Source of the DNA: Deltaproteobacteria bacterium
GTDB taxonomy: Bacteria > Myxococcota > Polyangia > Haliangiales > Haliangiaceae
Length of the DNA: 14,912 nt
Assembly (NCBI GenBank): GCA_018262455.1
Contig: JAGSPR010000147.1
Span: 1 to 14,912 of the forward strand
Direction of reading: 5' to 3'
Shown here: piece after piece, positions 2,257 through 14,912 of the stretch
Layout of the letters: each line of letters opens with the position of its first letter
Numbering within the stretch: position 1 is the first letter of the stretch
Notes under the pieces: model-generated
What the model saw: the letters and a program-made list of their open reading frames with translations, nothing else
The model's database searches: none
Told to the model about the DNA's origin: nothing
Position numbers and translations under genes: made by a program

Positions 2257-3228
<972 letters not shown>

Positions 3229-3247
3229 CGGCCGCCACGGAGGGACA

Positions 3248-4345
3248 ATGAGCATCTGGTCGCGACTCCGTCGACGCCTGCGGCCACCCCGTCGCCTGCG
3301 CTTCACGCGCGAGGGGCGGATCATCGTGCTGCTCGCGGTCGGGGTCGGGTTTGCGGCGATCAACACCGGCAACAACCTGCTCTATCTGCTCCTCGGATGG
3401 CTGCTGTCGTTCATCGTCGCCTCGGGGATCCTGTCGGAGCTGACGCTGAAGCGACTCACCGTCGAGCGGCGACCGCCGGCGCGGGTCTACGCCAACGAGC
3501 CGTTCCTGATGGAGGTCGTCATCGAGAACGGCAAGCAGAACCGGGCCTCGTTCTCGATCGAGGTCGAGGATCTGATCGCCGGGCGGCCTCTCGACAAGCG
3601 GTGTTACTTCCTCAAGATCCCGTCCTCGAAGTCGCAGCGCACGAGCTACCGCCACACGTTCGTCCGCCGGGGCCTCTACGAGCTGTCGGGGTACCGGCTC
3701 GCGACCAAGTTCCCGTTCGCGCTGTTCCGCAAGTCGCGCGATATCACCGCCCCGCTCGAGGTGCTGGTGTATCCGGCGCGGATCGTGGTGCCACGTCCGA
3801 TCCCGCGCTCGACGAGCACCGGCGACGCCACCGCGAATCGGCTCGGCCGCCGCGGCGAATTCTTCGGTCTGCGCGAGCGCCGGATCGGCGACGATCGACG
3901 CGACATCCACTGGCGCTCGAGCGCGCGGAGCGGCCGGTTGCTGGTCCGCGAGTACGAGGACGAGCTCGCACGGCGGGTGGTGATCGGCGTCGATAACGCG
4001 CTGCCCGAGGCGGTCCGCGAGGCCGTCCAGGACGGGGGACTGACGCCCGCGTTCGAGGCGCAGGTCTCATCGATCGAGCGTGCGATCAGCGTCGCGGCGA
4101 GCCTGGCGTCGTCGTACCTCGAGGTCGGCTGGTCGGTCGAGCTGTGCGCCCGGGGTTGCCACATCCCGTCGGGACTGGGCCGCCAGCACGAGGCCAAGAT
4201 CGGCCGCGCGCTCGCGCTCTTGCCTTATGTCTCGGAGGACGTCGTGTTCGCCGCGATCCCCGCGCGCGTCGAGTCGGTGCTCGTCATTCCGAAACAGGTG
4301 GCCGCGACCGGCCGGCCGTCGGCCACGACGGTGATGGACGTATGA
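3248..4345 (+). CDS. DUF58 domain membrane protein
   Basis: This 365-residue protein starts at an ATG three bases after GGAGGG (3239-3244), a strong ribosome binding site. After a basic N-terminus (RLRRRLRPPRRLRF) come two hydrophobic helices at about residues 27-65, then a beta-rich region. The DUF58 signature lies near residues 200-238: GRRGEFFGLRERRIGDD, then RDIHWRSSARSGRLLVREYE, followed by RRVVIGVDNA, which resembles the start of a degenerate von Willebrand A fold. DUF58 proteins are the standard partners of MoxR ATPases, but their biochemical role is not established. Its TGA overlaps the ATG of the next gene as ATGA (4342-4345), implying translational coupling. Confidence 0.92.
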   Translation: MSIWSRLRRRLRPPRRLRFTREGRIIVLLAVGVGFAAINTGNNLLYLLLGWLLSFIVASGILSELTLKRLTVERRPPARVYANEPFLMEVVIENGKQNRASFSIEVEDLIAGRPLDKRCYFLKIPSSKSQRTSYRHTFVRRGLYELSGYRLATKFPFALFRKSRDITAPLEVLVYPARIVVPRPIPRSTSTGDATANRLGRRGEFFGLRERRIGDDRRDIHWRSSARSGRLLVREYEDELARRVVIGVDNALPEAVREAVQDGGLTPAFEAQVSSIERAISVAASLASSYLEVGWSVELCARGCHIPSGLGRQHEAKIGRALALLPYVSEDVVFAAIPARVESVLVIPKQVAATGRPSATTVMDV

Positions 4346-6585
4346 GGTTTGCCGTCGCGCACAAGGCAACGACCTACATGATGGTCGGCTGTGCCTACCT
4401 CGCGCTCGTAGCGGGCGGCACGCTCCCGTCGGTGCTGTCGCTCGGCTCCCTGATCGGCCTGATCGTCTCGTGGTGGTGGGAGCCGCCGCGGATCCGGTTC
4501 GAGAAATGGTCATGGGTGTGGACGATCCTGTCGATCCTCGCGCTGATCTACAGCCTGCTGACGGCGCTGGTGACATTCGACTTCCTGCTCGTCGGAGCAG
4601 AGTTCCTCGTCTGGTTGACGGTGGTGAAGGCGTTCAACCGGAAGGCCGCGCGGGACTGGCAGCAGATGTACCTGCTCGCGTTCCTGATGCTGGTCGCCGG
4701 TTCGGTGCTGAACCCGGACCTGACGTACGGCCTGTGCTTCTTCGGGTTCGTGATCGCCTCGACCTGGGCGCTGACGCTGTTCCACCTCCGCCGCGAGATG
4801 GAGGACAACCTGCTCGTCAAGCACGCCGCCGACCGGGCGTCGGAGCGGGTCGAGGTGCGTCGGATCCTCGATTCGCGGCGGATCGTCGGCGGGCGGTTCT
4901 TCGTCGGGACGGGCTTCCTGTCGTTCGGGGTGTTCGTCGGCGCGGCGGTGGTGTTCCTCTCACTCCCGCGCGTTGGCATCGGGTTCTTCCTCAAGAGTCG
5001 CGGTGGGCTGACCCTGTCCGGGTTCTCCGACGGCGTGAACCTCGGCGGCCACGGCGTGATCAAGACCGACTCGACGGTGGTGATGCGCGTCGAGGTCAAC
5101 GCCCAGTTCGGCGCGCGCGAGGCGCCGCAGATCCACTGGCGGGGTGTCGCGTTCGACAAGTACCACGCGCGCCAGTGGTCTCGGAGCACCGACGCACCGC
5201 GCACCAATCAGACGCTCGAGCAGAGCCAGACCACGGATCGTCGTGTCCTGCTGTGGGCCGGCCGTGCGCTGCCGATCCCCGAGATCGAGCGGCTGAAGAC
5301 CTCGACCGTGAAACAGGAGATCTGGCTCGAACCGCTCGACTCGGACGTGCTGTTCGGAGCGAGCAACCCGCGGATCGTCGAGTACACGCATACGCTGCGC
5401 CGTCACAACCCGATCGAGCGCAACGACGAGATGCGGCTCGAGCACGGCACCACGGTGCACTACACCGTGTTCTCGGAGATCAACCCACCCTCGGCCGACG
5501 TGCTGCGCGCGTCCGAAGGCCCGCTCCCCACCGGCTTCGAGGTCTACCTCCAGCTGCCCGAGGAGATCACGCCGCGAACCCGCAAGCTCGCACAAACGAT
5601 CACCGCGCATGCGCTGACTCGCTACGACAAGGCGATGGCGATCAAGACGTGGCTCGGCAAGAACCTCACGTACACGCTCGAGCTCGAGGAGCCGATGGGC
5701 GAGGCGGTCGATTTCTTCCTGTTCGAGCGCAAGAAGGGGCACTGCGAATATTTCGCGTCGGCGTTCGCGGTACTCGCCCGGGCCGCCGGGATCCCGGTTC
5801 GTACGGTCAACGGATTCCTCGGCGGAGAGTGGAACGAGTATCAGAACTATGTCGCGGTGCGAGCCGGCGATGCGCACTCGTGGAACGAGGTGTATTTTGC
5901 TCAGCCCGGCCCCCAGGGCGGCGCCGACGCCGGAACGTGGGTGACCTTCGACGCGACGCCCCCGGCCGACATCGACCTGCTCGGGCGGGGCGGCACGGGC
6001 TGGCGAGCCCGGATGTCGCGCTTCATGGACACGCTGCGGTTCCAGTGGTCGAAGTGGGTGATCGAGTACGACCTGATCTCGCAGCTCTCGCTGGTCAAGT
6101 CGCTCGGCGACGCGCTCCAGACCGCGGGGCATGCCGTCAAGGTTGCGGCGATCTGGGTCAAGGACGTCGCGGTCGAGTACTGGCAGGTTTCGATCGCCCT
6201 CGCAGGAACGTTGATGGTCTGCCTTGGACTGCGTCGCCGACGGCGTCGAACGCGGGCCCCGGTCGCGAGCCGCGCCGAGCGGCGGAAACGGTCGAGCGTG
6301 GCCCAGGTCTATGACGCGGTGGCCAAGCAGCTCGCGAAGGCAGGGAACCCGCGAGGCCCCTCGGTCACCCCGCGCGAGCATGCCGAGCGGATGACCACGC
6401 GCGGCGATCCGGCGGCGCGCGAGGTCAGCGAGCTGGTCGAGCTCTATTACGCCACCGAGTGGGGCCATCGCGCCGGCACCGGACCGGATGTGGCGACCGA
6501 GGACCGCGCCGCAGCCCTGGCCCGAACCATCCGCAGCACGTTGATCGCCGCCCGCAGCCAGCCGAAGCCCCCACGATCGTCGTGA
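4342..6585 (+). CDS. TgpA-like membrane transglutaminase (DUF3488-transglutaminase core-DUF4129)
   Basis: The 747-residue product starts at the ATG within the ATGA overlap with the DUF58 stop. The N-terminal 200 residues hold about six or seven membrane helices (DUF3488-like). A periplasmic region follows with a transglutaminase core: KKGHCEYF (Cys468), AHSWNEVYF (His512) and WVTFDATPP (Asp537), so the catalytic triad is complete. One more helix lies near residues 616-632, followed by the Arg-rich stop RRRRRRTR. The cytoplasmic tail has a DUF4129-like stretch with VTPREHAER and a terminal LYYATEWG-like helix. TgpA of Pseudomonas aeruginosa is the characterised relative and is essential there; its substrate is uncertain. 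Frames upstream of 4342 are shadows of the DUF58 gene. Third gene of the MoxR operon. Confidence 0.92.
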   Translation: MRFAVAHKATTYMMVGCAYLALVAGGTLPSVLSLGSLIGLIVSWWWEPPRIRFEKWSWVWTILSILALIYSLLTALVTFDFLLVGAEFLVWLTVVKAFNRKAARDWQQMYLLAFLMLVAGSVLNPDLTYGLCFFGFVIASTWALTLFHLRREMEDNLLVKHAADRASERVEVRRILDSRRIVGGRFFVGTGFLSFGVFVGAAVVFLSLPRVGIGFFLKSRGGLTLSGFSDGVNLGGHGVIKTDSTVVMRVEVNAQFGAREAPQIHWRGVAFDKYHARQWSRSTDAPRTNQTLEQSQTTDRRVLLWAGRALPIPEIERLKTSTVKQEIWLEPLDSDVLFGASNPRIVEYTHTLRRHNPIERNDEMRLEHGTTVHYTVFSEINPPSADVLRASEGPLPTGFEVYLQLPEEITPRTRKLAQTITAHALTRYDKAMAIKTWLGKNLTYTLELEEPMGEAVDFFLFERKKGHCEYFASAFAVLARAAGIPVRTVNGFLGGEWNEYQNYVAVRAGDAHSWNEVYFAQPGPQGGADAGTWVTFDATPPADIDLLGRGGTGWRARMSRFMDTLRFQWSKWVIEYDLISQLSLVKSLGDALQTAGHAVKVAAIWVKDVAVEYWQVSIALAGTLMVCLGLRRRRRRTRAPVASRAERRKRSSVAQVYDAVAKQLAKAGNPRGPSVTPREHAERMTTRGDPAAREVSELVELYYATEWGHRAGTGPDVATEDRAAALARTIRSTLIAARSQPKPPRSS

Positions 6586-6752: not shown

Positions 6753-8798
6753 ATGACTTTCTCGCGTACGGTCCTCGTTGCGGCGATCGTGCCCGTGTTC
6801 CTCGCCCTGGGGGCAAGCCTCGCGGGTGCAGACACGGGGATGCTCGACAACGGCGCGGTCCTCCAGTGGCCGCGGCTGTTCATCCGGGAGGGCGACGCGC
6901 TCAAGGAGCCGTCCGATTCCGAGACGCTCCGCACCCGGATGAACCTCGCCTCCTGCCTGTGCAGCCAGTCGAACGCGGCCGTCGACACCGACCTGTACTA
7001 CGAGCTCCAGCTCACCACGACCACCGGCACCAACCGGGCGGGCCAGATCTGGGTCGGCGCCAACTGCGAGGACGACATCCAGCGCGCGATGCAATGCCGC
7101 CAGGTCGGCTCGATCGACGACATCGACACGTTCGCGATCCGCGCCGACAACATCGCCGTCCGGCTTTACGACCTCATCAACGCCTCGCCGGCCCAGGCCA
7201 CCGCTGCGTGCCGCCAGGCCGACGGGGGCGAAGCGTTCGTGTGGGTGATCGTCGATACCAACGGCGACAGCACCCCGGACTTCTTCTCGCCGCGACCGCT
7301 CGATCTCGACAAGTTCACCGACGCGAACGGCTTCGACACCCAGCCTCCACCTCCGCCGGAGAATGCGACCGCCGCCGGCGGCGAGAACGCCATCGAGATC
7401 ACGTGGAAGACTCCCGAGAGCCGCGCCACCGACATCTACGGGTTTCAAGCGCTCTGCATGGATGCCGCCGGCGCGCCGGTCGGCACGGGCGGAACTCCGC
7501 TCTACTCGACGACCGAGACCGTGTGCGGCGTTCCCCAGACCTTCGACCTGCCCGCGTCCGTGATCGTCGGCGATGAGGGCACCGCGGTGGCCGCGCCGCC
7601 GGCCCCGTTCGCGGCGCTCGATCCCGCCTACATCTGCGGGACCGTCGACAACGGCACCGCGCAGAGCATGACGATCAACGGCCTCTCGAACGATACCGAG
7701 TACACCGTCGCGCTCGTCGCCGTGGACTTCTACGGCAACGCCGTTGGCACCTACTTCTCGCGGACGGTGGTGCCCAGGCCGGTCACCGATTTCTGGGAGG
7801 ACGTCCACGACCGCGGCGGCAAGATCGAGGGTGGGTTGTGCTCGACGAGCTCGCCGGCATCGCTTCCAGGCATGCTGCTGATCCTCGCGCTGCCGTGGCT
7901 GTGGCGCCGCCGCCACCGGATCGTGCGCGGTCGCCTCACTCGCACCGCCACGCTCGTCGGTGGGCTCGCGATCCTCCTGGTCCCCGGCCGCGCCCGCGCC
8001 GATGACGCGTACCCGTACTGGGACGAAGGCGACGACAGCAGTGGCGGGCTCGACGACGGCGAGGACCTGGTGAAGTGGCACGCCGGCGTCAAGCTCGGCC
8101 CCTACACCCCCGACATCGACAACCAGCTCGGCATCAACCCGATGTCGAAGCAGGGCCCGTACCAGGCGATGTTCGGCAACTACTTCCTCGACGGCAAGGC
8201 GCACGACGCGCACGTCTACCAGGTCCTGCCGACGCTCGACGTCGACCGCATCATCTGGCGCGGCTCGGGCCAGCTCGGCATCGGCGGCACGCTCGGGTAC
8301 CTGCAGAAGACCGCGTACGCGTACCTCGCGAACACGAGCCCCGATGATCCGCGCCGCGAGCGTTCCGCCACCAGCAAGAACACGTTCCGGCTGATCCCGT
8401 TCGCCGCCACCGTCACCTACCGGGCGACCCAGCTCGACGATCTCTACGGCATCCCGGTCGTCCCCTACGTCCGCGGTGGCCTGTCGTACTACCTGTGGTG
8501 GCTCAAGGGTCCGAGCGGAAGCCTCGCGAAGGTCTGCACGGACGGCGGCATGGAAACCTCCAGCTGCAAAGGCGACAAGGCCTACGGCGGCACCCTCGGC
8601 TTCCAGGGCAGCATCGGGCTCTCGCTCCGCCTCGAGCGCATCGATGCCGATGCCGCGCGCTCGATGCGCCAGAGTGGGCTCAACCACGCCGGGTTCTACG
8701 GCGAGCTGACCTACGCCAAGGTCGATGGTTTCGGCTCCGACACGAAGCTGTCGGTCGGCGACGCGACGTGGTTCGCGGGCGTCGACTTCGAGTTCTGA
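6753..8798 (+). CDS. In-frame fusion: MYXO-CTERM-tailed Fn3 protein plus outer-membrane beta-barrel protein
   Basis: From ATG 6753 the product is 681 residues; the earlier TTG at 6705 precedes no sensible leader. Residues 1-27 form a signal peptide (SRTVLVAAIVPVFLALGASLA, cleavage near AGA-DT). Residues 28-200 are a Cys-containing secreted region; residues about 203-335 resemble a fibronectin type III fold (ENAIEITW, then TINGLSNDTEYTVALVAVD). Residues 360-389 look like a MYXO-CTERM signal: EGGLC (Cys363), hydrophobic LPGMLLILALPWLW, then RRRHR. With no stop codon, residues 391-416 form a second signal peptide ending in ARA-DD. Residues 417-681 are beta-barrel-like (KLGPYTPDIDNQLG, alternating aromatic strands, terminal WFAGVDFEF with C-terminal Phe). 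The two halves resemble the MXAN_2561 and MXAN_2562 families, which I recall as separate neighbouring genes. A sequencing error that removed a stop is the main alternative. Confidence 0.8.
   Translation: MTFSRTVLVAAIVPVFLALGASLAGADTGMLDNGAVLQWPRLFIREGDALKEPSDSETLRTRMNLASCLCSQSNAAVDTDLYYELQLTTTTGTNRAGQIWVGANCEDDIQRAMQCRQVGSIDDIDTFAIRADNIAVRLYDLINASPAQATAACRQADGGEAFVWVIVDTNGDSTPDFFSPRPLDLDKFTDANGFDTQPPPPPENATAAGGENAIEITWKTPESRATDIYGFQALCMDAAGAPVGTGGTPLYSTTETVCGVPQTFDLPASVIVGDEGTAVAAPPAPFAALDPAYICGTVDNGTAQSMTINGLSNDTEYTVALVAVDFYGNAVGTYFSRTVVPRPVTDFWEDVHDRGGKIEGGLCSTSSPASLPGMLLILALPWLWRRRHRIVRGRLTRTATLVGGLAILLVPGRARADDAYPYWDEGDDSSGGLDDGEDLVKWHAGVKLGPYTPDIDNQLGINPMSKQGPYQAMFGNYFLDGKAHDAHVYQVLPTLDVDRIIWRGSGQLGIGGTLGYLQKTAYAYLANTSPDDPRRERSATSKNTFRLIPFAATVTYRATQLDDLYGIPVVPYVRGGLSYYLWWLKGPSGSLAKVCTDGGMETSSCKGDKAYGGTLGFQGSIGLSLRLERIDADAARSMRQSGLNHAGFYGELTYAKVDGFGSDTKLSVGDATWFAGVDFEF
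7839..8000 (+). other. Internal membrane hairpin: MYXO-CTERM-like tail followed by second signal peptide
   Basis: Coding segment for residues 363-416 of the fusion. Cys363 and helix one (about 371-384) are followed by RRRHRIVRGRLTR (385-397) and helix two (about 398-412), ending PGRARA. By the positive-inside rule, helix one would pass out-to-in and helix two in-to-out, placing both flanking domains in the periplasm and the Arg loop in the cytoplasm. Cys363 fits the invariant Cys of MYXO-CTERM tails, where a rhomboid-like or CPBP-like myxosortase cuts. The end of helix two fits signal peptidase I (Ala-X-Ala). The roles are inferred from pattern. Confidence 0.65.
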
Positions 8799-9105: not shown

Positions 9106-9200
9106 GCGCGTGCCCGCAGCTCGGAATACCCACAGGCGGCGCGAACGTGGCAGGTTCGACAACGTGCTCGGCGATTCCCGGATCGTGTTACGACCGCACC

Positions 9201-10583
9201 GTGAAGCTCGCTTACGCATGCCTGACCCTCCTCGCCTGCGGTGGCACCGGCGAGCCTGACTCACCCACCTCGCCCGTGGGGGAGATCCCCGAGTTCGAGC
9301 AACGCACCGGCGACGCCGCGAACGGCTGGCGGGCGTTGATCGAGGAGGGCTACGTGGGATGCGGCGTGCCGCTGACCGCCTATCGCCGCGTGTCGTCCGA
9401 TCCGGCGCCGCCGGAGCTCCGGCTGGCCGACCGCACGGGGGTGAACGCCGACCTGCCCTACAACCTCACGGCATTCCGCACGCCCAGCGGCGTCGACGTG
9501 GTCACGCCGAACTGCCTCCAGTGTCACGCCCAGATGCTCGATGGCAAGCTCGTCATCGGGCTCGGCAGCCACTCCGCCGACTACACCCAGGACCTCGGAA
9601 ACCTCGCAGAGCTCGCGGGCTCGCTCGTGGAGACCGACGCGGAGCGGGCCGAGTGGTCGCGCTGGAGAGATCGCATCGTGGCGATCTCGCCATACACCGT
9701 CACCCGCACGATCGGCGTCAACCCGGCCGACAACCTCGCCGCGGTGCTGTTCGCGCATCGCGATCCCGAGACGCTGGCGTGGAGCGACACCCCCCTCATG
9801 CCACTCCCCCCGGAGATCGTCGTGCCGGCCGACGTGCCGCCGTGGTGGCACATGCAGAAGAAGCACGCGATGTTCTACGTGGGCGCCGGCCGAGGGGACC
9901 ACGCTCGCATCATGATGGCCGCGTCGACGTTGTGCGTCGATACCGTCGAGGAAGCCGCGGCGATCGACGCCTACTTCCCCGACGTTCGCTCGTTCCTGCT
10001 CGGCCTTCAGCCCCCGGTGTGGCCGCACTCGATCGACAGCAGCCGCGCCGCCACCGGCCGCACGATCTTCGACCAGCGGTGTGCGAGCTGCCACGGCACG
10101 TATGGCGACGTCGACACGTATCCGAACCTCATCATCGCGGTCGACGAGATCGGCACCGACACCACGATGGCGAGCGGCGCAGGCCAGTTCGGAGGCCCCT
10201 ACATCAACTGGTTCAACCGTTCGTTCTTCGGCGAGCTGTCCCAGCTGGCTCCCGCGCCCGGCTACATCGCGCCGCCGCTCGATGGGATCTGGGCGACCGC
10301 TCCCTACCTCCACAACGGCTCGGTTCCGACGCTCCGCGCGCTGCTCGATTCGTCGTCGCGACCGCGCTATTTCGTCCGCTCGTTCACCGACTACGATCGC
10401 GACGCGGTCGGCTGGGCCTATCGCACGCTCGACGTCGGGCAGGATGCACCGCCGTCGGGGACGGACCAGGTCGAGATCTACGACACCACGTTGGTGGGCT
10501 ATGGCAACGCCGGCCACACCTACGGCGACGAGCTGACGCCGGACGAGCGCGAGGCCGTGCTCGAGTACCTGAAGACGCTGTGA
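9201..10583 (+). CDS. Diheme c-type cytochrome lipoprotein, RoxA/cytochrome c peroxidase-like
   Basis: Taking GTG 9201 gives 460 residues with a short lipoprotein signal (VKLAYACLTLLAC-GG); the lipobox LLAC places the lipidated Cys near residue 13. In-frame frames above 9201 add a leader that would spoil the signal. Two c-type haem sites are visible: CLQCH (Cys105, Cys108, His109) and CASCH (Cys294, Cys297, His298). Near residue 367 is APYLHNGSVPTLRALL, a hallmark of the MauG/cytochrome c peroxidase/RoxA superfamily, and the C-terminus has YGNAGHTYG followed by DEREAVLEYLKTL, as in RoxA-like proteins. The N-terminal EEGYVGCGVP also fits that group. RoxA itself (about 680 residues) cleaves rubber with oxygen; this shorter protein need not. 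It probably sits in the periplasm anchored to a membrane. It is divergent from the ribbon-helix-helix gene, sharing a 143-base upstream gap with no clear + strand promoter. Confidence 0.85.
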   Translation: MKLAYACLTLLACGGTGEPDSPTSPVGEIPEFEQRTGDAANGWRALIEEGYVGCGVPLTAYRRVSSDPAPPELRLADRTGVNADLPYNLTAFRTPSGVDVVTPNCLQCHAQMLDGKLVIGLGSHSADYTQDLGNLAELAGSLVETDAERAEWSRWRDRIVAISPYTVTRTIGVNPADNLAAVLFAHRDPETLAWSDTPLMPLPPEIVVPADVPPWWHMQKKHAMFYVGAGRGDHARIMMAASTLCVDTVEEAAAIDAYFPDVRSFLLGLQPPVWPHSIDSSRAATGRTIFDQRCASCHGTYGDVDTYPNLIIAVDEIGTDTTMASGAGQFGGPYINWFNRSFFGELSQLAPAPGYIAPPLDGIWATAPYLHNGSVPTLRALLDSSSRPRYFVRSFTDYDRDAVGWAYRTLDVGQDAPPSGTDQVEIYDTTLVGYGNAGHTYGDELTPDEREAVLEYLKTL

Positions 10584-12391: not shown

Positions 12392-14912
12392 TCAGGGATT
12401 CGCGGTGCCGGCAGACGGGGCCGCGCAGACCGCCCAGTCGGACAGCGCGACGTCGGTGTCCTGGCCATCCGGCTTGCGGCAGACCGAGCCGGCGAACGGC
12501 GTCAGGTCGGCGGCGGGCGTGGGCAGGGCCTCGACGAGCGAGACCGGCGCCGCGAAGCCGGGTAGATCGACGGCCGTGATCGAGCCCTCGTACGATAGCG
12601 CATCGATCACGACGTGGGTCGTGTTGTCGATCAGCACGACGCCATCGGGTGCGCCGTTCTGGACCCGATCGGTGAGCCAGCCCGGATCGAGCTTCTTCGC
12701 GGTCCCGGGCACCGTCACGTTCGCCCCGGAGATGACGAGGTACTGGTGGCTGGCGAGCGATCCGAGCGACGTCAGGTCGATCGTGTCGTACACCAGTGCC
12801 CCGCTGCCGTTGACGAGCAGGACCTGCTTGCCGGACAGGCTGATCGCCGCGGCGGACGGGTTGTAGATCTCGATGAACTCGGCGCTATCGGACCCAGCCT
12901 GGTCGTAGTCGACCTCGTTGATCACCAGGTGGTTCGCGCCGGTCGACACGGTCACGGTCGCGCTGCTGGTGCTGGTGACGAGCGTCGCGGTCACCGTCGC
13001 GGAGCCCGAGGTCGACTGGTTGGTGTACGTGAAGGTCGCGGTGGTCTGGTTGGCCGCCACGCTGACCGTCGCCGGCAGCGAGCCGGCGTTCGCCGGATTC
13101 ACCGAGAGGCCGACCTGGGTCGCGGTCAGCGCCGGCACGTCGAGCGTCACCGTGAACACCACGGTGCCGCCGACTGCCACCGCGGTGTCGTTGGGCGACA
13201 GCGTCACCGTCGCCGGCGCCTCGGTGGCACCGAGCACGTGGACGTGCGAGGTCAGGCTCTGGGCGCCGAGCTGCGCGGTCACGGTGACGTCAGCATTCGC
13301 GGCGTTCGCGGTGACCGGCACCGTCGCGCTCGTTGCGCCGTCGGGGATCGTGACGTTGGAGACGGTCAGGTTCGCGCTCCCGGAGGTGACCGTCACCAGC
13401 GTGTTGCCCTGTGCGGGCCCGGTCAGCTTGACGGTCAGCGCGGAGGGGAACGTGGGGGCGTTCACCGTGGTCCCGACCCGCGCGAAGCTCAGCGCAGGGG
13501 TGACGGACGCCAGCCCGGGGGCGCCGGCCGTCAGATCGCCGGCATCGCGTGGCTCGAGCTTGGAGGCCGACTGGCGCAGCGCCAGGATGCCCCTCACGGC
13601 CGTGAAGCTCTGCCCGATCGCGAACGCGGGGTTCGGCACGAACAGCAGGTCATCGGCGATCAGGTCGTCGGCGCCGGCGGTCAGCGTGTACTCGCCGAAC
13701 ATCGGATTGACGGCGCTCACCGCCGAGGCACCGAGCGAGATGATCACACCTTCGAGCGCGAGCGCGCGCGTCCCGCCGGTCTTGACCTCGGCGTAGGTCG
13801 TCGCGATCGGCGCTGGCGGTGCCTCGGGGCCTACCGCGTCGACGGTGACCGCGGTGACGGCGTCGAGCTCGATCTCGCCCTGGAAGCTGGTGACGTGGGC
13901 GTCGATCGTGACGCGCGCCCCGAGCGTGGCGTTCGCGAGCCCCGGGTTGGTCGTCCCGGTGAACACGAACAGCCCGGAGTTGTCCGCGCCCATGTAGTCG
14001 GGGTCGGTCTCCTTGACCTGGACGAAGAAGCCGTTGGTGCCCTTGCCCGTCACGAGGACGTTCGTCAGCTGCACGGTGGTGCCGACCGCGGTCATGCCGG
14101 TCTTGATCTTGTAGATCGAGGACGCGCAGCCCGCCGCGCCCGGGTTCGAGGCTGCCGGACACGCGTCGCACACATCGCCCTTACCATCGGTGTCGCCATC
14201 GGCCTGATCGGTGTTGGCGACGTCGGGGCAGTTGTCGGTCGAGTTCGGCACGCCGTCGTGATCGCGATCGTTCGGATCGGCGACCGTGCACATGCTGGTG
14301 TTGGCATCGAGCGGGCATTGATCGCAGGCATCGCCGACGCCGTCATCATCGACATCACCCTCGACGCCGTTGTCGACCGGGCGGATCGGATCGAACACGG
14401 TCGGGCACTTGTCGCTGGCGTCGGGGATGCCGTCGCCGTCCATGTCGCCCGCGGCAGCGATGCCGGTGTAGACGCCGGAGCCATTGACCGACGCCGGCCG
14501 ACTCGGCACGCACGACGGCTCGTTCTGCGGCAGGCCACAGGCGAACGCGGGATACATGTTCGCGCCGGCCGCCGTGACCAGGTCCGAGTACGACTTGCCG
14601 ATCTCGCTCGTCAGGCAAACGCGCTTGCCGGTGCCGCACACATCGACGGCATCGCAGCTCTCCGCGAGCGCGGCCACCGCGGCGTCGTCACCGTAGAGCA
14701 CCTTGCCGCCGCGCATGACCAGGGTGACGTCCTGCGGCTCGGCATCGATCACCGCGCGGAACGTCTTGCCGTGGGCGTTGAAGATCGAGATGTCGGCGAC
14801 GTGACCGACCGCGAGCAAGCCGATCACGTCGTCGGTCGAGGTGATCGCGGCTGGGGTCGACGTCACCATCTGCCAGAGCTGGGCGTCGGAGAAGAAGTGG
14901 TAGTAGGTCTGG
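12392..14912 (-). CDS. Amidohydrolase fused to TSP3 repeats, OB/Ig-like domains and a lamin tail (5' end outside window)
   Basis: The frame is open from the window edge to a TGA at 12392-12394, giving about 839 residues; a Met codon at 14869 is internal, because preceding codons (QTYYHFFSDAQLWQ) continue the amidohydrolase fold. First part: AAITSTDDVIGLLAVGHVADISIF and then VTLVMRGGKVLYGD, the typical end of metal-dependent amidohydrolases (imidazolonepropionase/prolidase-like); the metal-binding residues would lie outside the window. Next come four Asp-rich calcium-binding thrombospondin type 3 repeats (14126-14446), two OB-like segments (about 14115-13545), two Ig-like Thr/Val-rich domains (about 13520-12940), and a lamin-tail domain (HLVINEVDYDQ from 12932, EFIEIYNPS) ending SDWAVCAAPSAGTANP, the usual end of that domain. 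It is probably secreted or surface-bound; the signal peptide cannot be seen. The substrate is unknown. Confidence 0.85.
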   Translation of the reverse strand, partial: QTYYHFFSDAQLWQMVTSTPAAITSTDDVIGLLAVGHVADISIFNAHGKTFRAVIDAEPQDVTLVMRGGKVLYGDDAAVAALAESCDAVDVCGTGKRVCLTSEIGKSYSDLVTAAGANMYPAFACGLPQNEPSCVPSRPASVNGSGVYTGIAAAGDMDGDGIPDASDKCPTVFDPIRPVDNGVEGDVDDDGVGDACDQCPLDANTSMCTVADPNDRDHDGVPNSTDNCPDVANTDQADGDTDGKGDVCDACPAASNPGAAGCASSIYKIKTGMTAVGTTVQLTNVLVTGKGTNGFFVQVKETDPDYMGADNSGLFVFTGTTNPGLANATLGARVTIDAHVTSFQGEIELDAVTAVTVDAVGPEAPPAPIATTYAEVKTGGTRALALEGVIISLGASAVSAVNPMFGEYTLTAGADDLIADDLLFVPNPAFAIGQSFTAVRGILALRQSASKLEPRDAGDLTAGAPGLASVTPALSFARVGTTVNAPTFPSALTVKLTGPAQGNTLVTVTSGSANLTVSNVTIPDGATSATVPVTANAANADVTVTAQLGAQSLTSHVHVLGATEAPATVTLSPNDTAVAVGGTVVFTVTLDVPALTATQVGLSVNPANAGSLPATVSVAANQTTATFTYTNQSTSGSATVTATLVTSTSSATVTVSTGANHLVINEVDYDQAGSDSAEFIEIYNPSAAAISLSGKQVLLVNGSGALVYDTIDLTSLGSLASHQYLVISGANVTVPGTAKKLDPGWLTDRVQNGAPDGVVLIDNTTHVVIDALSYEGSITAVDLPGFAAPVSLVEALPTPAADLTPFAGSVCRKPDGQDTDVALSDWAVCAAPSAGTANP
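14126..14446 (-). repeat. Thrombospondin type 3-like calcium-binding repeats within the amidohydrolase hybrid
   Basis: Four protein-level repeats follow a D-x-D-x-D-G-x-x-D/N-x-x-D-x-C-P pattern: DMDGDGIPDASDKCP, DVDDDGVGDACDQCP, DRDHDGVPNSTDNCP and DGDTDGKGDVCDACP. Asp side chains would bind Ca2+ and the Cys residues pair as disulfides, implying folding outside the cytoplasm. Repeats have diverged at DNA level, so this is not recent duplication. Confidence 0.85.

Follow-up and report, generated by a model that had tools for sequence, protein, structure and literature searches.

Our analysis revealed a single myxobacterial gene that encodes two envelope proteins end to end, first a surface protein and then a barrel of the outer membrane, each with its own export signal. 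It lies in the window, by which we mean the whole 14,912-nucleotide stretch analysed (contig JAGSPR010000147.1 of assembly GCA_018262455.1), and runs from ATG 6753 to TGA 8798 on the forward strand as one uninterrupted frame of 681 codons. We consider it likely, at a probability of roughly 0.7, that the gene is a conserved tandem-export polyprotein, that is, a two-gene operon for a tail-anchored surface protein and a barrel that has turned into a single frame, whose product is then cut in two. Comparison with relatives points to one frame with no conserved internal ribosome-binding site, to the conservation of both presumed cut sites, and to a fusion that is both shared and recurrent. The polyprotein reading put forward in the first-pass annotation is, on these comparisons, well supported up to proteolysis, which we infer.

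The fused gene and its two halves

The gene comprises the following features.

6753..8798 (+), entire fused gene, 681 codons plus stop; fused homologues exist
6753..6830 (+), signal peptide 1, residues 1-26, A-G-A/D, read from the sequence
6831..7841 (+), Fn3-like exported half, residues 27-363, from alignment and predicted structure; kin to the MXAN_2561 family by profile
7839..7841 (+), Cys363, presumed lipidation and tail-cut site; conserved in 112/112, modification presumed
7863..7904 (+), tail helix, hydrophobic residues 371-384, presumed first hairpin leg, from sequence; matches the final helix in tails of the CFI type
7905..7919 (+), Arg cluster RRRHR, residues 385-389, presumed cytoplasmic turn, from conservation
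7920..8000 (+), internal signal peptide 2, residues 390-416, core 398-411, A414-R415-A416/D417, from sequence and conservation
8001..8798 (+), OmpA-like outer-membrane barrel of the MXAN_2562 family, residues 417-681 plus stop, from profile and predicted structure

Every element of the order proposed in the first-pass annotation (signal peptide, Fn3-like half, Cys-helix-Arg tail, second signal peptide, barrel) was recovered in the window where that annotation had placed it. The internal signal peptide appears to have all type I features, namely a basic start, a hydrophobic core and an A-x-A site, kept in relatives, and the last barrel residue is Phe681. An open frame alone is weak evidence, since the DNA is GC-rich and the frames of separate barrels also extend far upstream by chance; the evidence that counts is that a stop has been lost with the two halves in the same frame, that the second ribosome-binding site is gone, and that particular sites are conserved.

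The barrel half belongs to the MXAN_2562 family by NCBIfam profile search (NF040596, 175.6 bits against a cut-off of 100), and its AlphaFold2 model (mean pLDDT 90.7) has OmpA as the top PDB match in Foldseek (TM by target 0.64), with NspA at rank 8 (0.70), which bears out the outer-membrane beta-barrel called earlier. The first half scores 51.8 bits against the MXAN_2561 family (NF045522, cut-off 150) and is related to that family without being an equivalog. Its earlier description as Fn3-like holds in that Fn3 tandems are the top PDB matches of its model (mean pLDDT 93.0), with TM by query low at 0.2-0.3, whereas the Pfam fn3 profile stays under its cut-off of 25 (19.1 bits, E 0.0016). The alignments given to AlphaFold2 held 61 and 42 sequences. 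Besides Cys363, eight cysteines are invariant in this half across 22 aligned sequences. Thus, both halves match the MXAN_2561/MXAN_2562 families, only the second over cut-off; these are modelled as two families, whereas here they form one chain. From their locus numbers, we take MXAN_2561 and MXAN_2562 to be neighbours in M. xanthus.

Fusion and translation across relatives

Among 169 distinct barrel loci, drawn partly from the matches listed, 73 are fused, 91 have both genes as neighbours, the first lying upstream in the same orientation, and in five the barrel frame runs off the 5' edge. All 164 loci with enough sequence thus keep the pair, those found via the first-half model containing that half by construction. 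The loci derive from 182 stretches (L001-L181 plus the window), of which 11 repeat counted barrels and two, L041 and L095, gave no barrel (L095 has the first gene); 80 regions were picked by hand among the NF040596 matches listed, in rough score order, and weak barrels are missing from the set. An earlier DNA scan had yielded 31 loci. Across 377 Myxococcota genomes, NF040596 matched in 274 (218 over cut-off) and NF045522 in 263 (none over cut-off).

The first-pass annotation had named fusion in this genome alone, with separate genes in all close relatives, as a case that would tell against its reading; that case is contradicted both by the 73 fused loci and by the barrel tree, on which the window sits within a starred set of 27 rows that are fused in 27/27. 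In the sequences compared, the fusion is shared and recurrent, not a single-genome oddity. On a tree of 164 barrels, the fused or separate state changes at least 17 times, against 6 when only starred branches are trusted and 54 with shuffled labels; gain and loss of the fusion are indistinguishable on it. Two relatives, P0179 and P0183 (45% and 43% identical), open with Met followed by a stretch resembling a signal peptide. This is what products of separate genes would show, and it speaks against a fusion universal among kin; P0114 (63% identical) is ambiguous.

These results leave next to no room for a sequencing or assembly error that removed a stop. The window does come from a single contig, but the fusion recurs in the distinct loci above, the second ribosome-binding site is gone as well, and 109 of 112 homologues measure 649-877 aa (three are shorter), though that search takes only lengths near the query's. 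Being blind to separate genes, it was complemented by the DNA loci and by a further search that brought in P0179, P0183 and P0114. Sequencing error was rejected, as relatives carry the same fusion.

In the separate pairs, a start codon in the barrel frame shares 4 nt with the stop of the first gene in 68/91 and 1 nt in 12/91, and 70 of these 80 overlapping starts have a Shine-Dalgarno match. A -4 or -1 start was preferred whenever present in the barrel frame, so that 80/91 counts the loci having such a codon, for which we guess a chance rate of a quarter of loci. Where two genes overlap in this way, one indel would be enough to join their frames, a plausible origin of the fusions. In loci with a recognised signal-peptidase site, we examined the stretch 15-55 codons ahead of it: a start codon with a Shine-Dalgarno match precedes the barrel in 70/80 separate loci versus 3/72 fused ones, against a background of 141/1408 and 118/1276 windows inside barrels (9-10%). 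The three fused loci are the window (TTG 362, ahead of the tail helix), L024 and L103, and 8/72 fused loci have no ATG, GTG or TTG in the 15-55-codon stretch at all. Because of this difference between fused and separate loci, the barrel of a fused locus is most probably synthesised solely within the chain, as judged from its sequence context.

The same counts bear on whether the barrel might instead be translated alone from an internal start (ATG 374 or GTG 391), with the open frame incidental. GTG 391 would yield a complete signal peptide, and 64/72 fused loci have some ATG, GTG or TTG within reach. Against this, neither ATG 374 nor GTG 391 has a Shine-Dalgarno match, the window's sole codon that does, TTG 362, lies before the helix, start codons with such a match occur in 3/72 fused loci against a background of 9-10%, and 8/72 lack a start codon there altogether. 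We regard independent translation as improbable, while leaderless or weak internal starts may occur.

Conserved sites, the tail and proposed processing

Conservation is concentrated at the two presumed cut sites. In the homologue columns, G360, G361 and C363 are each kept in 112/112, and the Arg cluster in 104/112 (R385) and 105/112 (R386). At the internal signal peptide, A414 is kept in 98/112 (A, V, S or G in 111/112) and A416 in 108/112, position 415 and the neighbouring columns vary, and the D417 column holds D, Q or G in 106/112. Conserved A414 and A416 amid variable neighbours are what a functioning signal-peptidase site would show, and the invariant Cys363 points to a second reaction. 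Among fused loci, 69/73 have A-x-A after the core versus a shuffle mean of 46 and maximum of 52 (the locus L023, missed by the script, has A-I-A by eye); taken by itself this count says little, because so much Ala yields A-x-A often even after shuffling (46/73 on average), and the column counts are the better test. Conservation at Cys363 and Ala416 is what would be expected if both cuts operate, and it suggests that they do, the tail cut being less certain than the signal-peptidase cut.

We propose the following sequence of events. Signal peptide 1 would begin export, and the Cys-helix-Arg tail would halt transfer, leaving the Arg cluster on the cytoplasmic side. Export would then resume at the internal signal peptide, which would form the other leg of a hairpin, a topology we infer. 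Signal peptidase I could cleave after Ala416, releasing the barrel for outer-membrane insertion, and a myxosortase-like intramembrane protease could cleave beside Cys363, leaving the Fn3-like protein on lipid and, presumably, displayed at the surface.

The tail itself has features of two known types. The first-pass annotation called it MYXO-CTERM-like; the feature set is present (invariant C363, helix 371-384, RRRHR), but the tail scores 14.7 bits against TIGR03901 in the whole protein and 15.6 in the first half alone, short of the cut-off of 20, and its last helix matches that in the CFI-box-type tails of near relatives. It also lacks the C-terminal position, with 292 residues following the Arg cluster. 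Plain MYXO-CTERM membership was rejected on the bit score. Plain CFI-box-CTERM membership (NF041770, cut-off 40 bits) was likewise rejected, the window protein giving no match at E up to 1; among ten homologues scanned, eight match and P0111 alone exceeds the cut-off. The last helix is alike in the window (LPGMLLILALPWLWRRR) and in the near relative L003 (LPGLLLVLAMPWLWRRR) despite the long tail of the latter. Set against L003, window positions 7842-7919 suggest that short and long tails are interchangeable within the family, while the Cys and the last helix stay. The window tail may thus be a long CFI-type tail minus its middle, with the direction of that change our supposition.

By rough counts, short tails occur in 42 fused and 72 separate loci and CFI-box-like tails in 31 and 19, the sorting being by regular expression and several separate-gene 'short' tails (L065, L096, L170 and L181, among others) looking CFI-like by eye. 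Among 111 homologues, an LP-x motif precedes the last helix in 81/83 long and 12/28 short tails, and, mapped onto a 116-barrel tree, tail type switches at least seven times, four of them forced. Long CFI-type tails are common among the fused relatives and may cross the membrane once or twice; two crossings would misfit the hairpin.

One alternative is that signal peptidase acts alone, so that the first half is retained in the inner membrane by its tail helix, or released by some other protease, and carries no lipid anchor at the surface. The tail's score below the MYXO-CTERM cut-off fits this, as does a limited literature search that found no protease for the relatives' long CFI-type tails. 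Set against it are Cys363 and the G360-G361 pair, kept in every homologue, and the presence of candidate enzymes and other substrates in the relatives. Specifically, the MrtX model matches in 25/25 relatives' genomes (24 at 100-149 bits and one at 26, none reaching the cut-off of 180), versus 4/14 control genomes, all under cut-off. Two of the matching proteins score above the 100-bit cut-off of the myxosortase core model (125.4 and 119.2 bits), with MrtP, under cut-off, as their best full-length match. Further, each of ten relatives' genomes examined holds 11-45 MYXO-CTERM matches. We therefore hold a single cut by signal peptidase to be unlikely. Less probable again is that both sites remain uncut and that a single membrane-tethered fusion functions. 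The present evidence, all of it from sequence, is compatible with such a protein, but the Ala residues at -3 and -1 are kept amid variable residues and both halves are separate proteins in 91/169 loci, and we give it very little weight.

If the two cuts of the polyprotein do happen, a C-terminal sorting tag would function mid-chain, and the gene itself would fix a 1:1 supply of the barrel and its surface partner. The fused gene would offer a natural substrate in which myxosortase and signal-peptidase cuts could be read from one precursor, and the fusion points to joint action of the barrel and the Fn3-like protein. To our knowledge, polyproteins cut into separate exported products have seldom been described in bacteria.

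Internal sorting tails elsewhere and genomic setting

From the genomes of ten relatives we inspected 75 hits to MYXO-CTERM, made up of the 20 with the best scores, 20 from genome G002 and 35 more. In 66/75 the protein ends within 50 aa of the motif start, in eight it continues into a second signal peptide, and in one (L256) it continues without one. The earlier statement that MYXO-CTERM tails are normally the last residues of a protein thus holds for most hits, with a mid-protein case, MXAN_5598, already in print (PMC11980579). Six of the eight run-on loci have a lipobox in the second signal peptide (L196, L214, L218, L234, L242 and L258, apparently one family) and two have a type I signal peptide (L205, S-H-A; L219, A-R-A); a Shine-Dalgarno match ahead of a start codon at the junction was found in 0/8.

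In five longer stretches (L228-L232), the internal motif exceeds the MYXO-CTERM cut-off, at 22.6-27.9 bits. At the place of L205, L229:3-3173 (+) encodes disulfide-type repeats, an internal MYXO-CTERM, a signal peptide and a TraB-like barrel (NF033763, E 1.1e-43, 149 bits, cut-off 700) in one frame; with its repeats, motif and TraB-like barrel, it resembles MXAN_5598. L232:2-1681 (-) has an internal MYXO-CTERM at 23.2 bits and then a type I signal peptide, the contig ending shortly after. A family of long frames, represented by L228, L230, L231 and L268-L297, combines an internal MYXO-CTERM over cut-off with a subsequent lipoprotein signal peptide and ~330-450 aa of second part. The lipoprotein-type protein has matches in 61/112 genomes, with tail and lipobox in one frame in 20/30 loci; the pattern gave 21/30, of which L271 is spurious by eye, and several others have the cut placed too far downstream. 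Weak matches to residues 248-385 of the lipoprotein-type query, with one TAG inside each, were seen at G116:C209, G072:C51 and G112:C270. The TraB-like query matches in 85/112 genomes, and 3/30 loci satisfy the strict pattern.

A broader proposal, to which we give about even odds, is that Myxococcota use tandem-export polyproteins generally. Precursors would be strung tail-to-signal peptide with hairpins cut twice, so that one chain yields two differently anchored envelope proteins, as in the Fn3/barrel, adhesin/TraB-like and lipoprotein families, and operons would repeatedly have turned into polyproteins, or the reverse, as the second ribosome-binding site was lost or gained.

The nearest precedent is MXAN_5598 of M. 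xanthus, in which an internal MYXO-CTERM is followed by an outer-membrane barrel (PMC11980579). The authors report that TraA cleavage is MrtX-dependent and propose that MXAN_5598 arose by gene fusion and has its first part processed likewise. MXAN_5598 resembles the fused gene of the window in its mid-protein MYXO-CTERM before a barrel and differs in its adhesin first half, in the OmpA domains after the barrel and in being, as presented there, one atypical case (PMC11980579). The family of the fused gene, in contrast, has MXAN_2561/MXAN_2562-type halves, and its fusion recurs over the phylum. In M. xanthus, the traA and traB frames overlap by four bases; like the separate pairs here, they join a tail-anchored surface protein with an envelope partner across a 4-nt overlap and, unlike the fused gene, they remain two genes and two proteins, unfused (PMC3325183). 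MXAN_5598 and overlapping gene pairs are already in print; a recurrent, widespread fusion without a second ribosome-binding site and a lipoprotein version were not found in a limited literature search. The midcut-by-XrtH family (NF033207), by its name a mid-cut protein of an exosortase system and compared here by name and score alone, matches the fused homologue P0106 at 29.5 bits (cut-off 45). The limited search returned nothing for MXAN_2561, CFI-box, midcut-by-XrtH or a mid-protein exosortase sorting signal.

Upstream of the fusion, window positions 2257-6585 (+) carry MoxR, DUF58 and TgpA-type transglutaminase genes. In 15/31 loci, all three genes sit immediately before the fusion; TgpA is at the contig edge in two more, the block is further upstream in L014 and before a separate pair in L028, it is absent within 10 kb upstream in five loci (L006, L007, L024, L030 and L031), and seven of the 31 loci begin too close to the gene to judge. 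From this gene order, a functional link between the block and the fusion is possible. Downstream, positions 9147-10583 (+) encode a RoxA-like cytochrome, and at 12392-14911 (-) lies a long frame, open at the window end, whose repeats are acidic and rich in Asp.
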